From positions 1 to 64,000 of the forward strand of contig NZ_JANFQO010000021.1 of assembly GCF_024437735.1 (NCBI RefSeq): a stretch of 64,000 bases of DNA. Reading direction: 5' to 3'. The stretch is from Tahibacter harae. Its GTDB lineage: Bacteria; Pseudomonadota; Gammaproteobacteria; Xanthomonadales; Rhodanobacteraceae. Both the position numbers and the translations under genes were made by a program. Within the stretch, counting starts at the first letter, position 1, and the number at the start of each line of letters is the position of its first letter. Below are positions 21,372 to 47,524 of this stretch, in pieces. The notes below the pieces were generated by a model. That model worked only from the letters and a program-made list of their open reading frames with translations. It was not told the DNA's origin and made no database searches.

Positions 21372-22172
21372 ATGAATCTCCGTGCCTCAGTCCTGTTCTC
21401 CGCCGGCCTGGCCGCCGCGCCGGCATTGGCCATGGACTACAGCGACCACTGGTGGAACCCGGCCGAATCCGGCCGCGGCATCATGATCGAGCAGCGCGGC
21501 GCGCGCGCTTACGCCATCGTCTACGACTTCCGCGACAACGGCCTGCCGGTCTGGTACATCGCGCCCGGACTGAGCGTGCGCAGCGCCGCGGCGGATGCGC
21601 CGCCGGTGCTGAGCGGCGCGCTGTTCCGTGCCTTCGACAACGGCCCCGGCACCACGCCGCGGATCGAGGCCGACCAGGTCGGCGAAATCACCATCGAGGG
21701 CGAGAGCGTATCCACGGCACGCGCGGTCTACACGGTATCCGGCCGGCGCAGCGAACAGCCGCTGCAGCGGCTGGACTTTGCCGATACCCGGCCCGAAGGC
21801 CGCTACCTCGCGACTGTCGCGACCGCCGATACCGCGGCATCGGTCCAACCGGCCGCGGATGTCGCCAGCGTGCTCTTCACCGCCGCGACCACGCCGCAGG
21901 GCGAATTCGTGCTCAGCTCAGAAAGCGCCGGCGCGGCCGGCGTCGTGCGCTGCAGCTACAGCGGCGACGGCGGCCCGCTGTATGTGCAGACCGGCCGCAC
22001 GGCGGCGATCCGCGCGCGTTCGCTGTGCAATGGCGCCGCCGGCACGCTGCTGCTGCGCGAGATCGAATTCACTTCGGCCGGATTCACCGCCCGCATCGAC
22101 GAAACCGGCGCCAGGAACATAGCGGGCGGCCGGCTGGCCGCGCTCCGGCTGGGACCTGTGCCGGCGCAGTGA
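21372..22172 (+). CDS. Secreted protein with HWWNPAESGRG motif
   Basis: 266 residues from ATG 21372; the frame is open further upstream but signal peptide and ribosome site fix this start. Signal peptide about 1-20 (LFSAGLAAAPALA). The mature N-terminus YSDHWWNPAESGRGIMIEQRG is a motif I recall as common in secreted proteins of Xanthomonadales, usually W(W/Y)NPxESGWG; its function is not known. The rest is beta-rich with two cysteines (VVRCSY, RSLCNG). No operon partner. Confidence 0.78.
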   Translation: MNLRASVLFSAGLAAAPALAMDYSDHWWNPAESGRGIMIEQRGARAYAIVYDFRDNGLPVWYIAPGLSVRSAAADAPPVLSGALFRAFDNGPGTTPRIEADQVGEITIEGESVSTARAVYTVSGRRSEQPLQRLDFADTRPEGRYLATVATADTAASVQPAADVASVLFTAATTPQGEFVLSSESAGAAGVVRCSYSGDGGPLYVQTGRTAAIRARSLCNGAAGTLLLREIEFTSAGFTARIDETGARNIAGGRLAALRLGPVPAQ

Positions 22173-38085: not shown

Positions 38086-38173
38086 ACCGTAGCCCGCCGC
38101 GGCCGTCCGCCCGCGCTTGCCGCCGCGGCGGCCTGTGGCACACTCGCCGCCCGTTGCCGCTACAGGAGTTGCC

Positions 38174-39823
38174 ATGAGCGATGCGAACCCGGCCCGGGCC
38201 GGCCAGCCGGCCGACGCGGCCCGACTGGTGGATCTGGACGCGCTGCAGCAGGCCTATTACACGCGCCGGCCCGATCCGCAGGACCCGGCCCAGCGCGTCG
38301 CCTTCGGCACCTCGGGACATCGCGGCACATCGTTCGCCGCCAGCTTCAACGAAGATCACGTGCTGGCCATCACCCAGGCCATCTGCGAATACCGCGCGCA
38401 GCGCGGCATCGACGGTCCGCTGTTCCTGGGCATGGATACGCACGCGCTGTCGCGGCCCGCGCTGCGGACGGCGCTGGAAGTACTGGCCGCCAACGGCGTG
38501 GAGACGCGCATCGCCGCGGGCGACGAATACACGCCGACACCGGCGATCTCCCACGCCATCCTGGTACACAACCGCGGCCGCGAGCGCGGCCTTGCCGATG
38601 GCATCGTGGTGACGCCGTCGCACAATCCGCCGGAAGACGGCGGCTTCAAATACAACCCGCCCAACGGCGGCCCGGCCGATACCGCGGTCACCGGTGCGAT
38701 CGAGCAGCGCGCCAATGCGCTGCTCGCCGCCGGCCTGGCCGGCGTGCGCCGGCTGCCGTACGAACAGGCGCGGCGTGCGTCCACTACGCGCGAACATGAT
38801 TTCGTCGCCGCCTACGTGGGCGAACTGGACCAAGTGCTGGATCTGGATGCGATCCGCGCTTCCGGCATACGCCTGGGCGTGGATCCGCTGGGCGGCGCTG
38901 GCCTGGCGTACTGGCAGCGCATCGCCGAGCAGCACCGTCTGCCGCTCCAGATCGTCAACACGCGCATCGATCCGCGCTTCGGTTTCATGACGCTGGACTG
39001 GGATGGCCGCATCCGCATGGATCCGTCCTCGCGCCACGCCATGCGCGGGCTGATCGATCTGCGCGAGCGTTTCGACGTGGCCTTCGCCTGCGATCCCGAC
39101 CACGACCGCCACGGCGTGGTCACGCCCAGCGGCGGCCTGATGCTGCCGAACAACTACCTTGCCGTGATGGCGGATTACCTGTTCACCACGCGCGGCGGCT
39201 GGTCGCCGTCCGCGGCGGTGGGCAAGACCCTGGTATCCAGCGCGCTGATCGACCGTGTGGCCGCGCGGCTGGGCCGCGCGCTGTACGAGACCCCGGTGGG
39301 CTTCAAATGGTTTGTCGATGGCCTGTGCGCCGGTACGCTGGGCTTCGGCGCTGAAGAAAGCGCCGGCGCTTCGTTCCTGCGCCGGGACGGCGGTGTCTGG
39401 AGTACGGACAAGGACGGCATCGCGCCCGCGCTGCTCGCGGCGGAAATCACGGCGCGCCTGGGCAAGGATCCGTACCAGCGCTATCGCGAACTGTGCAGCG
39501 AACTGGGCGAGCCGCACAGCGACCGCGTCGATGCGCCGGCCACGGCGGAGCAGAAGAAAAAGCTGTCCAAGCTGAGCCCCGCGCAGATCAGCGCGACGGA
39601 ACTGGCGGGCGAGCCGATCACCGCCGTGCTGGACAAGGCGCCGGGCAACGGTGCCGGCATAGGCGGCATCAAGGTCACCTGCGCCAACGGCTGGTTCGCC
39701 GCGCGGCCTTCAGGCACCGAGGCGATCTACAAGATCTATGCGGAAAGCTTCCGCGGGCCGGAGCATCTGCAGCGGATACTGGCCGAGGCGCAGCAGGTGG
39801 TGGATGCGACGCTGGCGGAGTGA
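38174..39823 (+). CDS. pgm: Phosphoglucomutase, alpha-D-glucose phosphate-specific
   Basis: 549 residues, matching E. coli Pgm in length. Active-site elements are all present: GTSGHRG (44-50), [12 protein letters not shown] with phospho-Ser149, the metal loop DPDHDRHG, sugar loop GAEESAG, and phosphate loop RPSGTEA near the end. It interconverts glucose-1-phosphate and glucose-6-phosphate for glycogen, UDP-glucose and envelope sugars. Start ATG has ACAGGAG 5 bases upstream. It follows the LTA-synthase-like gene by 88 bases and ends before a strong terminator-like palindrome. Confidence 0.96.
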
Positions 39824-40019
39824 GTGGGGTTGGTGAGCGCGGTTGTACGCAATTGCTGTCGAGGCCGCGGGGATGGCGGCGATTGGCTGCTGTCGAAGCA
39901 GCGGGTCCATAGCGTGATCGGTGCTGTGGACGCGCAGGTTTGCGCTGGATCTTTCTTTGCGCGGAGAGCTGGCGAAAAACGCGCTTCGCTGCGGGCTGAT
40001 CCGTCGCCCCCTCACCCAA

Positions 40020-40062
40020 CCCTCTCCCCAAGCGCGTAAACGCGCTTGGGGAGAGGGCTTTT
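40020..40062 (+). terminator. 17-bp-stem terminator after pgm, REP-like
   Basis: CCCTCTCCCCAAGCGCG (40020-40036) and its perfect complement (40041-40057) surround a TAAA loop and are followed by CTTTT. The left flank CCCCCTCACCCAACCCTCTC is a string I recall as dispersed in proteobacterial genomes, so this may be both a mobile palindrome and the working pgm terminator. Confidence 0.8.
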
Positions 40063-40087
40063 CCGCTGGCGGATCACCGGTTTCGCG

Positions 40088-40361
40088 GCAATACGCACTC
40101 GTTGCGGCATCCGTCAGTTGCAGGGGCCGTCTGTTGCAACCTCCGTTTGCCGCAACACCCATTCGCTGTGGCGTCCGTTCGTTGCAGCGTCCGTCGGTTG
40201 TACAACCTCCGTTTGCCGCAACGTTCATTCGCTGTGGCATCCGTTCGTTGCAACGTCCGTCTCATGCAACATCCATTCGCCACGCCACTCGTTCATTGCA
40301 ACGTGCGGGCTGCGCGATGTCCATTCGCTGCCGCGTCCTTTCGCGCCAGCATCCGCTTCGA
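40088..40361. repeat. Degenerate 16-bp tandem repeat array, about 17 units
   Basis: Units read GCAACGTCCGTTCGTT by consensus and run without spacers; all are 16 bases except unit 8 (18 bases, 40200-40217). A higher-order period of four units is visible: 40136-40199 and 40200-40265 are close copies. Unit junctions form CGTTGCAACG (exact at 40246-40255) and units contain AACG-tc-CGTT. The array is about 56% GC in a 70% GC setting. Several frames stay open through it but none has a ribosome site, so it is treated as non-coding. Confidence 0.9.
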
Positions 40362-40395
40362 CAGGCCAACGCCGGCGCAGGCATCGGCCGGTCGA

Positions 40396-43224
40396 TCAAT
40401 GCACCTGCGCCAGCACCGCGTCCACCGCGCGGGCGAAGCGGCCCTGCCATTCCGCGGCGTCGGACTTGGGCAGGGGGCCGAGTTCCACCCAGCGCTGCAG
40501 CAGTGCCAGCAGTTCTTCGCGGGGCGAGGTATTCGCGTTGCCGCTGAGGCGGCGGGACAGGCGGGTCACTTGCAGATCCATGCGGCGCGCCTTGTCGGCG
40601 GCGGGGCTTTCCACCGCGCCCAGGAATTCCAGCGTGACCAGCAGTTCGCGCCGCGCGTCGTCGCTGCCGGCGGTTTCGCCGTTCGCGGACGGGTTTGCGC
40701 GCGCCGCGCCGGTGGCACCATCGGCAGCGGCGGTATTGTCCGCGTCGCCGGCAGCGTCGGCTCCGCTAGCGGCGCCGCTGGCGTCGCCTGTTGCACTGGC
40801 GTTGACGCCGCTGCTACCCGCCGCCGCCTTGAAGCGTTGCTGCAGCGCCTGTGCCAGCGGCGTGTTGGCGCCGTCCGCCGGCCACTCCTGGCTGGCGGCG
40901 GCTGCGCCGATGCGGCCCAGTTCCACGCTTTCGCACAGCGCCAGGCGCGCCAGCGCATCGCGGAACACGGCTTCGCGGCGCTGGCGCTGGACATCTTTCT
41001 GCACCGCGTCCAGGGCCTCCAGCTGCTGCTGCCAGCGGCGCTGCTGTTCGCGGTCGCGCACGTCCAGGCCGGACCAGCGCTGCTCCAGTTCGCGCCGCTG
41101 CGCCGGCTGGTTTTCCGCCGGCAGCTGCGCGGCCTGGGCCAGCTCGCCGAGCAGGGCTTCGGCCTGGGCGCGTGCGGCGGTCTCGGCTTCCTCGCGCTCG
41201 CGGCGGGCGCCGTCGAGGCGGGCGAAGATCGCGTCGCAATGGCCGCGGAATTCCTTCCACTGTGCCTCGTCGGTGCGGCGGCGCCCGTTGCCGGCGGCCT
41301 TCCAGCGCGTTTGCAGGTCGCGCACCTCGCGCGCGGCGGCCGCGGCATCGGCGGCACCCGCCAGGCGTTCGGCTTCGGCGATCAGGCGGCGCTTGGCTGC
41401 TTCGACGCCGGCGGCCTGTTCGTCCAGGCGCGCGTCGATGCGTGCCAGCACGTCCTTGAGCCGCTGCGCCAGCGCCTTGCGCTCGCGCGGATCCACGCCG
41501 TCCAGCGCGCGCAGCGCCTCGGCGATTTCGCGGCGCTGTTTGGCCAGGGCGCCGATGTCGCTGCCCGCCGTGGCTTCGGCGCCGGTCGCGCTTTCCACGG
41601 CGACGAGCAGGGTCTCGATTTCCTGCTGGTTGGATTTGCGCAATTCATCGCGCTTGCTGAAATAGCCCTGCGCCGGTTTCAGCGCCTGTGCGCACAGGGC
41701 CTGGAAACGGCGGCCCAGGCCCTGGCTGCCGCGGGCGTCGCGGTCGGCTTCCTGGGCTTCCAGCTGCTGCCACTCGGCGCGGGCTTCGCGCACGCGCGTG
41801 GCCACGGCGTCGGGATGCAGACCCTGGCCGGGCAGGGCTTCGATCGCTTCGCACAGCTGCTTGCGCCGCTCGTTGTTGGACCAGCGCTGCCAGCGCTTGA
41901 GTTCGGCCAGGCGCGCTTCGGCGTTGGCCAGGCGCTTGTCGTGGCGGGCGATGGCCGGCAGGCCTTCGAGCAGGTTGGTGATGCGCGCATGCGTGGCCAC
42001 GGCCTGGGCTAGGTCGCCGGCTTCCAGCTCGCTTTCCAGCGCGATGACCAGCGCGTCCAGATCGCGGCGCAGGGCCTGGTGCTGTTCGCGCTGTTTTTCC
42101 TTGTCGGCCTGGGCGCGTTCCAGCGCGGCCTCGAAACGCGCCTGGGCGGCCAGGGCTTCCAGATTGGGCTCGCTGCGCTCGGGTTCGGGTGCGGGTGCGG
42201 CTTCCGCGGCGGCGGCCTGTTCGGCCGCCCGGGCGGCGAGCACGGCGCGCAGGGCCAGTTTCTGCGTCAGTTGCACCAGCAGGACTTCCACCGGCTCGCG
42301 CTCGGGCAGTTCCAGGCGGTTGGCGGCCAGCTCGGTGCGCACGGCGGCGACGGTGGCCTCCAGTTCGGCGGTGTCGCTGTCCGGTCCGGCCAGGCTGCGT
42401 TCCAGGCGCGCGCGCGCGGCGCGCAGGCGGCTGCGTTCCTGCGCGGCCTCGTCGGTGTCCATGCGCAGGAAATTGCGCGTGGATTCGAAGCGTTCGGCGA
42501 ATTGCCGCGGCGCCTTGCCGGCCAGCGTGGCCCAGGCCTGGTCCAGCGCGGCCAGTTCCTCGGCGCGTTCGCTGCGCGGGCGCTGCAGCAGCGCATCCAC
42601 GCGCTCGCACAGCTGGCGCGCGCGCGCTTCGATCGCGGCGCTGTCGCCGGCGGCGATGCGGCCGGCTTCGGCGCGTTCGCGCGCGAGGCGGCTGACGATC
42701 TTGTCGGTCTTGCGCGTGCGCTCGGCGATGCGGGTCAGCGCGTCCAGGTCGTTGATGCGCGACAGCGCGACCAGGCGCAGCTTGGGATCGGCGTCGTTGA
42801 CCGCGACATCGGCCAGCAGGCTGGGGCGCGTGGCGCGTTCCAGCGCCGCGCTGCGCAGGGCCGGATCGCTGGCCTGGCCGACCAGGCGTTCGATTTCCTC
42901 GCCGGACAAGGTATCCAGCTCGGCGATGCGCCGCTCCAGCGGCGGCAGATCGGCGCTGTTGCCGCTGAGCATGGCCAGGTAGGCCGCGCGCGCGACGCTG
43001 CGCAGATTGCTGTCGGCGTCGCCGGTGGAGCGTTCGCGCCAGGCTTCGTACTGGTTGAGCCGGCGCAGCGCGGCCAGGCGCACGCCGGCGTCGGCGTCGT
43101 TGCGCGCAATCGTGGGCAGGGCGGCGATCAGCTCGGCGTCGCTGAGTTCGGCCACGGCGCCGCGGCGCGTCGCCACATCCTTGCTTTGCCAACGCGGTTT
43201 GAACAGGAAGCGGGCAAGTTTCAT
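40396..43224 (-). CDS. Large coiled-coil DUF349 protein
   Basis: 942 residues, no signal peptide or membrane helix. The N-terminal part (about 1-170) has HEAT-like repeats (AELSDAELIAALPTIARNDADAGVRLAALRRL). The rest is almost wholly charged helix/coiled coil with several DUF349 modules (e.g. WKEFRGHCDAIFARLDGARREREE and the RWSGLDVRDREQQRRWQQQLEALDAV region). An Ala/Gly/Ser/Thr linker lies near residues 805-865. The family has no established function; a scaffold or nucleic-acid role is guesswork. It lies downstream of and possibly co-transcribed with the TraB-family gene (73-base gap). Confidence 0.85.
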   Translation of the reverse strand: MKLARFLFKPRWQSKDVATRRGAVAELSDAELIAALPTIARNDADAGVRLAALRRLNQYEAWRERSTGDADSNLRSVARAAYLAMLSGNSADLPPLERRIAELDTLSGEEIERLVGQASDPALRSAALERATRPSLLADVAVNDADPKLRLVALSRINDLDALTRIAERTRKTDKIVSRLARERAEAGRIAAGDSAAIEARARQLCERVDALLQRPRSERAEELAALDQAWATLAGKAPRQFAERFESTRNFLRMDTDEAAQERSRLRAARARLERSLAGPDSDTAELEATVAAVRTELAANRLELPEREPVEVLLVQLTQKLALRAVLAARAAEQAAAAEAAPAPEPERSEPNLEALAAQARFEAALERAQADKEKQREQHQALRRDLDALVIALESELEAGDLAQAVATHARITNLLEGLPAIARHDKRLANAEARLAELKRWQRWSNNERRKQLCEAIEALPGQGLHPDAVATRVREARAEWQQLEAQEADRDARGSQGLGRRFQALCAQALKPAQGYFSKRDELRKSNQQEIETLLVAVESATGAEATAGSDIGALAKQRREIAEALRALDGVDPRERKALAQRLKDVLARIDARLDEQAAGVEAAKRRLIAEAERLAGAADAAAAAREVRDLQTRWKAAGNGRRRTDEAQWKEFRGHCDAIFARLDGARREREEAETAARAQAEALLGELAQAAQLPAENQPAQRRELEQRWSGLDVRDREQQRRWQQQLEALDAVQKDVQRQRREAVFRDALARLALCESVELGRIGAAAASQEWPADGANTPLAQALQQRFKAAAGSSGVNASATGDASGAASGADAAGDADNTAAADGATGAARANPSANGETAGSDDARRELLVTLEFLGAVESPAADKARRMDLQVTRLSRRLSGNANTSPREELLALLQRWVELGPLPKSDAAEWQGRFARAVDAVLAQVH

Positions 43225-47211: not shown

Positions 47212-47524
47212 AGGCCCGGAAGACAAGGCGCCGCAACAAGGCGGTGGCTGAGTCGAAGAAAGCAAAGCATACAGAGCTGGACAGGCCGGCGACCTGAGTG
47301 CGGAAACGCAAAAGGACGCGCAAGGCGGCGACTGGGCTCAGAAAAGCAAAGGGCCGCACAAGGCGGCGGCTGGACCCAGAAAAGCTAAAGGGCCGCACAA
47401 GGCGGCGGCTGGAACCAGAAAAGCAAAGGGCCGCACAAGGCGGCGGCTGGAACCAGAAAAGCAAAGGGCCGCACAAGGCGCGGCTGGAACCAGAAAAGCA
47501 AAGGGCCGCACAAGGCGGCCCTTT
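47212..47524. repeat. 38-bp tandem repeat array, about eight units
   Basis: Nearly identical units lie at about 47336-47524, with more diverged units back to about 47212. Unit lengths in the good part are 38, 39, 38 and 37 bases, then a final partial unit. Each contains AGAAAAGCAAAGGGCCGC followed by ACAAGGCGGC. Read on minus, each unit is a GCCGC-cttgt-GCGGC stem followed by CCTTTGCTTTTC, a copy of the rpmJ terminator. Confidence 0.88.
47493..47524 (-). terminator. Rho-independent terminator of rpmJ
   Basis: On minus, AAAGGGCCGC (47524-47515) pairs with GCGGCCCTTT (47509-47500) around CTTGT and is followed by GCTTTTC. It lies 27 bases past the rpmJ stop. Incomplete copies repeat downstream in the 38-bp array. 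Confidence 0.85.

Follow-up and report, generated by a model that had tools for sequence, protein, structure and literature searches.

A degenerate 16-bp tandem array beside a dispersed triplex-motif-like element in Tahibacter harae

Organization of the pgm–DUF349 intergenic region

The array described here is located in a 64,000-nucleotide stretch of Tahibacter harae DNA (hereafter the window), between pgm and a DUF349 gene. The two genes are convergent, as initially annotated, with pgm ending at 39823 on the plus strand and the DUF349 gene at 40396 on the minus strand, which leaves a gap of 572 bp. The gap contains a copy of a dispersed element that includes a strong hairpin, a short linker and the tandem array itself.

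38117–39823, plus strand: pgm, phosphoglucomutase/phosphomannomutase gene (ORF as listed), the left neighbour
39928–40066, plus strand: copy of the dispersed element, with one palindrome and about 80 bp of half-symmetrical core (nhmmer E 3e-24)
40009–40057, minus strand: hairpin and third strand of the dispersed element, arranged as CCCTCTCCC, a 20-nt loop, GGGAGAGGG, a 2-nt loop and GGGTGAGGG
40058–40084, no strand assigned: 27-bp linker from the hairpin to the array
40085–40360, no strand assigned: degenerate tandem array of 17 head-to-tail units of about 16 bp, with a higher-order period of 64–66 bp
40396–43224, minus strand: DUF349 gene, the convergent right neighbour

With the hairpin ending at 40057 and the array beginning at 40085, the 40–50 bases first placed between them are corrected to 27. 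The GC content of the array is 0.60 compared with 0.70 for the window, in line with the lower value noted initially.

The flanking genes were followed into seven other genomes of the genus, six of which contain DUF349 and six pgm. Named relatives of the DUF349 protein come from T. aquaticus and T. soli. In all five relatives with both genes (G002, G004, G005, G006, which is a fragmentary genome, and G007), the two lie on different contigs. The pgm–DUF349 gap therefore seems to be private to this species. Four of the five DUF349 flanks of the relatives run, by eye, into a comEC-like gene, in one of which (L012) a Competence domain was confirmed; the T. harae counterpart of this gene is on another contig, C7. 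The flanks of L012, L013 and L014 are identical to those of G005, G002 and G004, with which they seem to be the same genomes, and they are accordingly not independent of them. A rearrangement at the dispersed element might lie behind the pgm–DUF349 adjacency, but the pgm flanks of the relatives differ among themselves as well.

No array was detected by chained unit score in the five DUF349 flanks, and none was seen by eye in six pgm flanks of the relatives. The initial annotation had proposed that absence of the unit elsewhere and a gap free of repeats in every close relative would mark the array as a private neutral minisatellite. The array-free DUF349 flanks agree with this as far as the gaps can be compared, pgm and DUF349 not being neighbours in the five relatives with both genes.

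A degenerate array with a higher-order period

The initial annotation of a tandem 16-bp array with about 17 units was supported by Tandem Repeats Finder (TRF) and by parsing, which gave 17 units. Fourteen of them are exactly 16 bp long and the remaining three measure 19, 18 and 15 bp; the fourteen exact units define the majority consensus GCAACGTCCGTTCGTT. TRF called the 16-bp period over 40133–40279 (9.1 copies, score 64) and a 66-bp period over 40080–40261 (2.8 copies, 83% matches, score 225). The self-identity of the array at lag 16 was 0.527, compared with a maximum of 0.409 in 2000 dinucleotide shuffles, for each of which the best of lags 5–59 was taken. Units at an offset of four showed the fewest differences (mean 4.58), against means of 6.0–7.7 at the other offsets from one to eight. 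The repetition in fours over 64–66 bp that had been pointed out is thus reproduced by two measures, and the greater likeness of units four apart indicates that blocks of four units were duplicated.

The spacer-free, head-to-tail arrangement and a unit length within the range of roughly 10–100 bp make the array a minisatellite. A CRISPR was ruled out, as the units are degenerate and have no spacers between them. Differences from the consensus number 61, of which 45 are transitions, and they are spread over the 16 columns with no significantly conserved core (chi2 21.1, 15 df). Such a predominance of transitions, together with the absence of a significantly uneven spread over the columns, is the pattern expected from drift.

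Search for the 16-bp unit elsewhere

A blastn search of the T. harae genome (5.99 Mb, 79 contigs) found other matches to the array only at E ≥ 0.1, and among eight same-genus genomes including T. harae only T. harae itself matched at E 0.001. A three-unit profile scored 22–39 bits along its own array, falling to 20–21 bits where the array is ragged, and did not exceed 18.8 bits anywhere else in the genus. Its weak matches at 15 places in T. harae had chained scores of no more than 19.5, within the range of the array-free parts of the window, which reach 22.4. The same profile returned one other match, in G015, from 398 genomes of the order, searched at E 5e-4 with stricter filters and 15 candidates scored per genome, settings under which weak arrays could be missed. 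The G015 match looks like coding DNA by eye, as does a match in the window at 21740–21781; both were discarded. Blastn in 147 genomes of the family added a single 28-bp match, in G140. On viral contigs, an 18-base unit pattern occurred as nine single matches, with chained unit scores of at most 26.5 compared with 244 for the array, and a distant-mode search of a plasmid collection returned 15 records, all with less than 80% coverage of the query. The consensus search suggested by the initial annotation thus places the unit, at the sensitivity used and apart from single weak matches, only at this locus.

Symmetry, folding and coding potential of the array

The units had been described as carrying a palindrome each. 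This is not what the parsed array contains: AACGTCCGTT is never exact and occurs seven times at one or two mismatches, and CGTTGCAACG is exact once and occurs four times at up to two mismatches. The palindromes of the array are mostly a property of its consensus. Folding was compared with null arrays in which the 16 columns were permuted alike in all units, keeping the repeat structure. The real array was equalled or surpassed in folding by seven of 300 such arrays on the plus strand and by 11 of 300 on the minus strand, a slight folding excess over the permuted set. Covariation of pairing positions was absent both within units (31 of 60 pairs form, 31.8 expected, p 0.75) and across unit junctions (31 of 52 pairs, 26.6 expected, p 0.11), and selection for stems in the array is thus unsupported by this test.

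An iterated site for a nucleoid, partition or replication-control protein was among the roles first proposed. A short, partly symmetrical unit in many copies is what such a site would look like, and the slight folding excess would suit it. The searches, however, found no other copy of the unit in the genome or in relatives, the unit has no significantly conserved core, and the 45 transitions among the 61 differences lend the proposal no support. A 16-bp spacing, about one and a half helical turns, would moreover put adjacent sites on opposite faces of the DNA. The four neighbouring genes tested (pgm, DUF349, a TraB-family gene and a sulfatase-domain gene) include no replication or partition gene. 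We consider a binding site very unlikely. An array of iterons or a partition site in particular was rejected, given the degenerate units and the absence of replication and partition genes among these four neighbours.

The array could alternatively act as an attenuator or other structured RNA where pgm or DUF349 transcripts end (3′). The segment 40000–40370, which includes the strong hairpin, folds with a z-score of −6.5 on the plus strand, and the array itself with one of −3.5 on the minus strand; both values would fit such a role. Against it, repeats whose consensus is partly palindromic need no selection to fold well, the units show no covariation, and Rfam gave three matches at 39600–40700, all far under threshold. 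An RNA function is therefore judged highly improbable. A decayed or hidden coding repeat was also weighed, as three plus-strand ORFs (208, 539 and 636 aa) cross the array. A 16-bp unit lacking plus-strand stop words, however, opens every frame by arithmetic; the 19-, 18- and 15-bp units shift the frame, and identity at lag 48 (0.49) is not above that at lag 16 (0.53). A coding origin was rejected on these grounds and is scarcely credible.

The hairpin belongs to a dispersed triplex-motif-like element

The hairpin at 40020–40057 has a 17-bp stem and a z-score of −9.2 (Watson–Crick fold, computed). It had been called a strong palindromic terminator. The strength of the hairpin is confirmed; a simple scan of 39700–40500 for at least five T in eight bases found no terminator-like site, and the hairpin is instead part of a copy of a dispersed element. 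The assignment of the window copy is based on an nhmmer model built from 65 other copies, and a model of the core only matched it at E 7.7e-7. Among 66 copies oriented in T. harae, 53 have paired palindromes, often facing each other around the half-symmetrical core. The window copy is classed as unpaired, with no further palindrome of the family detected towards pgm. The sequence CCCTCACCCNNNCCCTCTCCC occurs at 47 places in T. harae at up to one mismatch, the window copy, with its 2-base spacer, not being among them. The 27-bp linker has no detectable homology to the linker of copies that bear heptamer arrays. Amplification of the 16-bp unit from the small linker hairpin of other copies was considered and dropped: in a Smith–Waterman comparison 282 of 500 shuffles scored at least as high, and nhmmer found no match there.

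The palindrome pattern is found 76 times in T. harae, compared with 0 to 211 times in seven other genomes of the genus. The highest count belongs to G004; the six others have 0 to 15. Expansion of the palindrome within the genus is strong and uneven.

The element resembles TM_ECO (earlier PIT), an intrastrand triplex motif (Holder et al., 2015; PMC4666352). The window hairpin shares with TM_ECO the order of its three 9-nt stems, an intergenic and dispersed distribution and the frequent occurrence of copies in facing pairs. The stems CCCTCNCCC, GGGNGAGGG and GGGNGAGGG follow one another on one strand and are exact in the window copy; they are exact in 41 of the 66 T. harae copies and within one mismatch in 58. 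The loops differ. TM_ECO has a first loop of 3–6 nt and a second of 3 nt, whereas those of the window copy are 20 and 2 nt; in the 41 exact-stem copies the first loop is 12–22 nt and the second is 2 nt in 21, 3 nt in 19 and 4 nt in one. In T. harae the motif is also set in a longer element, with a core of roughly 100 bp. As the published loop lengths are not matched, we regard the element as TM_ECO-like rather than as a strict member. Of 398 genomes of the order, 63 match the strict stem pattern with both loops variable, and many of these have the classical 3-nt first loop.

According to the accessible text of the same report, the flanks of TM_ECO are more variable between E. coli strains than control sites are, by a mechanism that Holder et al. 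found unclear, a stable triplex in vivo is unsupported, and an earlier study detected no promoter or terminator activity (PMC4666352). Tandem arrays flanking TM_ECO are not mentioned in that part of the text.

Dispersed intergenic palindromes, often in facing dimers, are likewise typical of REP/BIME elements with GTAG or CGTC tags, at least in the part of the source available (PMC3733652). The stem of CGTC-tagged REPs given there is 8–9 bp, against 17 bp in the window hairpin. REP/BIME palindromes that go with a RAYT flank the transposase, whereas the only Y1_Tnp match of the T. harae genome has no element palindromes in the 1.7 kb around it. By eye, this Y1-transposase match (L210; G000:C11:85858-86124) is bounded by an inverted repeat, GGGGTCAGGTTAACTT and AAGTTAACCTGACCCC.

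Tandem arrays are frequent on the hairpin side of the element in T. harae

Flanking arrays were scored within 250 bp of each copy at a TRF score of at least 50, using the 66 distinct copies that could be oriented from the fetched stretches; copies whose side could not be determined were left out. Half of them (33 of 66) have a tandem array on the outer, hairpin-side flank and 6 of 66 on the inner flank, compared with 19 of 363 control flanks, taken from other hairpins, including some within genes. Arrays with periods that are not multiples of three are found at 26 of 66 outer flanks, 6 of 66 inner flanks and 4 of 363 other hairpin flanks. A better control is provided by gene 3′ ends that face motif-free gaps of 200 bp or more, with genes called by a simple GC-frame method: an array starts within 130 bp at 32 of 66 motif flanks and at 7 of 169 such gene ends.

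The 33 arrays comprise 13 of a heptamer type with one shared linker, which are probably related by descent, seven more that look heptamer-like by eye and 13 with other units. These last 13, the window array included, have periods of 6 to 66 bp, and about five of them contain only some two unit copies; one, at L193 (period 18), might be coding. Besides the common heptamer, about a dozen mutually unrelated units are represented. After removal of the window copy and of the 20 heptamer-type copies that have arrays, the excess persisted, with arrays starting within 130 bp at 11 of 45 motif flanks versus 7 of 169 gene ends (p 1.2e-4; this and the other p-values for copies treat them as independent, which related copies are not).

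The preference for the outer flank is mainly carried by the paired copies. In the 13 unpaired copies, six have an outer and one an inner array, which is suggestive (p 0.07). When the inner flank was extended to 380 bp, 15 of 66 copies had an inner array; 14 of the 15 are paired copies, and the inner arrays of paired copies may belong to the partner palindrome.

Whole gaps, that of the 16-bp array among them, were compared in the window plus 788 kb at a TRF score of 60, weak arrays included; in T. harae, the analysis covered the fetched element loci and, besides these, about 13% of the genome. Arrays are present in 4 of 17 gaps with the motif and 12 of 283 without it, in 4 of 14 versus 9 of 185 when gaps of at least 200 bp are counted, and in 2 of 12 versus 8 of 142 for gaps of at least 300 bp, where the excess is weak.

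Beyond T. harae, arrays beside the motif are uncommon, with 3 of 32 copies in three same-genus relatives (the side being undetermined in 11 of the 32) and 2 of 35 copies in other genomes of the order. Counting only non-heptamer arrays, 12 of 46 copies in T. harae compare with 5 of 67 in relatives (p 0.014). The rarity of arrays beside the motif in relatives indicates that the motif is not sufficient, and the link between element and array looks lineage-specific.

One composite repeat recurs in T. harae. It begins with the triplex-motif hairpin, continues through a shared linker some 65 bp long and ends in (CGAATCC)n, with about 4 to 18 units that start about 78 bases after the hairpin. The shared linker was found in 17 of the 66 copies, 13 of these with an array; composite loci include L135, L140, L141, L150, L156, L157, L159, L202 and others.

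Origin of the 16-bp array

We favor the reading that the array is a neutral, decaying minisatellite that arose by tandem duplication beside a dispersed hairpin/triplex-motif-like element whose copies are array hot spots in this species, and consider this reading probable. Most likely, the array is one of many array births beside the element in T. harae. It would have been born and grown in intergenic DNA through tandem duplication by replication slippage or template switching, and at least one round of duplication would have proceeded in blocks of four units. The element could take part if a replication fork stalls at the hairpin or triplex and then slips backward to leave an array, and some lineage-specific factor may let such arrays grow. 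The array itself is presumed to have no function. A neutral minisatellite had been among the roles considered initially and is the one best supported, the unit being absent elsewhere at the sensitivity used and the five DUF349 flanks being free of the array. The recombination hot spot, also considered then, was right in spirit: the element is of a kind linked in print to local variability, and tandem arrays of other units occupy the same position at half of the copies examined in T. harae.

Alternatively, the array might be an ordinary private minisatellite, generated by neutral slippage and unrelated to the hairpin, the array and the element merely being tolerated in the same gaps. Arrays do form where the motif is absent, as the 12 of 283 gaps, the 7 of 169 gene ends and the 38-bp-unit array at 47303–47519 show, and relatives with the motif are mostly without arrays. 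The excess at motif flanks that persists when neither the window copy nor any heptamer-type array is counted (11 of 45 versus 7 of 169) is at odds with this explanation, which we regard as rather unlikely.

The favored origin, in which the element copies are array hot spots, can be extended. Triplex-motif-like elements could be minisatellite factories, each copy being able to turn the sequence on its hairpin side, whatever that may be, into an array, after a change in replication or repair specific to this lineage; the 16-bp array would be one such birth, now decaying. This wider proposal is tentative, and we hold it to be possible rather than likely. If it were true, arrays would have been born independently at least a dozen times in T. 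harae, at nearly the same position with respect to a known motif. The array itself is an ordinary repeat; what makes the case interesting is that element and arrays are linked, apparently in this lineage specifically. The T. harae genome would make it possible to follow how arrays arise next to a defined non-B DNA motif, and the genetic cause could be sought by comparing repair genes between species.

Two published systems combine some of these features. In the related genus Xanthomonas, heptameric GGGAATC arrays are intergenic and often occur as two facing arrays, according to the part of the source available (PMC4692102). Several T. harae element copies carry heptamer arrays too, (CGAATCC)n; the 16-bp unit is unrelated to the Xanthomonas heptamer and is not G-rich, and a link of the heptamers to triplex-motif palindromes is not mentioned in that part of the source. 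BrickBuilt is a minisatellite within a MITE of Porphyromonas gingivalis; according to the accessible text, its units follow one another without spacers, and the dispersed inverted-repeat element to which it belongs is always intergenic (PMC4596501). One 23-nt unit is common to all BrickBuilt copies, whereas the units in T. harae vary by copy and the 16-bp unit is confined to one locus. Titles and the opening lines of abstracts in the open-licence literature yielded no case in this group of a tandem array next to a triplex motif or palindrome.

The second intergenic minisatellite of the window, at 47303–47519, lies 7 kb from the 16-bp array, next to a small gene that appears rpmJ-like by eye. 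It has 5.7 copies of the 38-bp unit with 93% matches. Its last unit runs into the hairpin AAAGGGCCGCACAAGGCGGCCCTTT, and the unit thus repeats one arm of a terminator-like hairpin.
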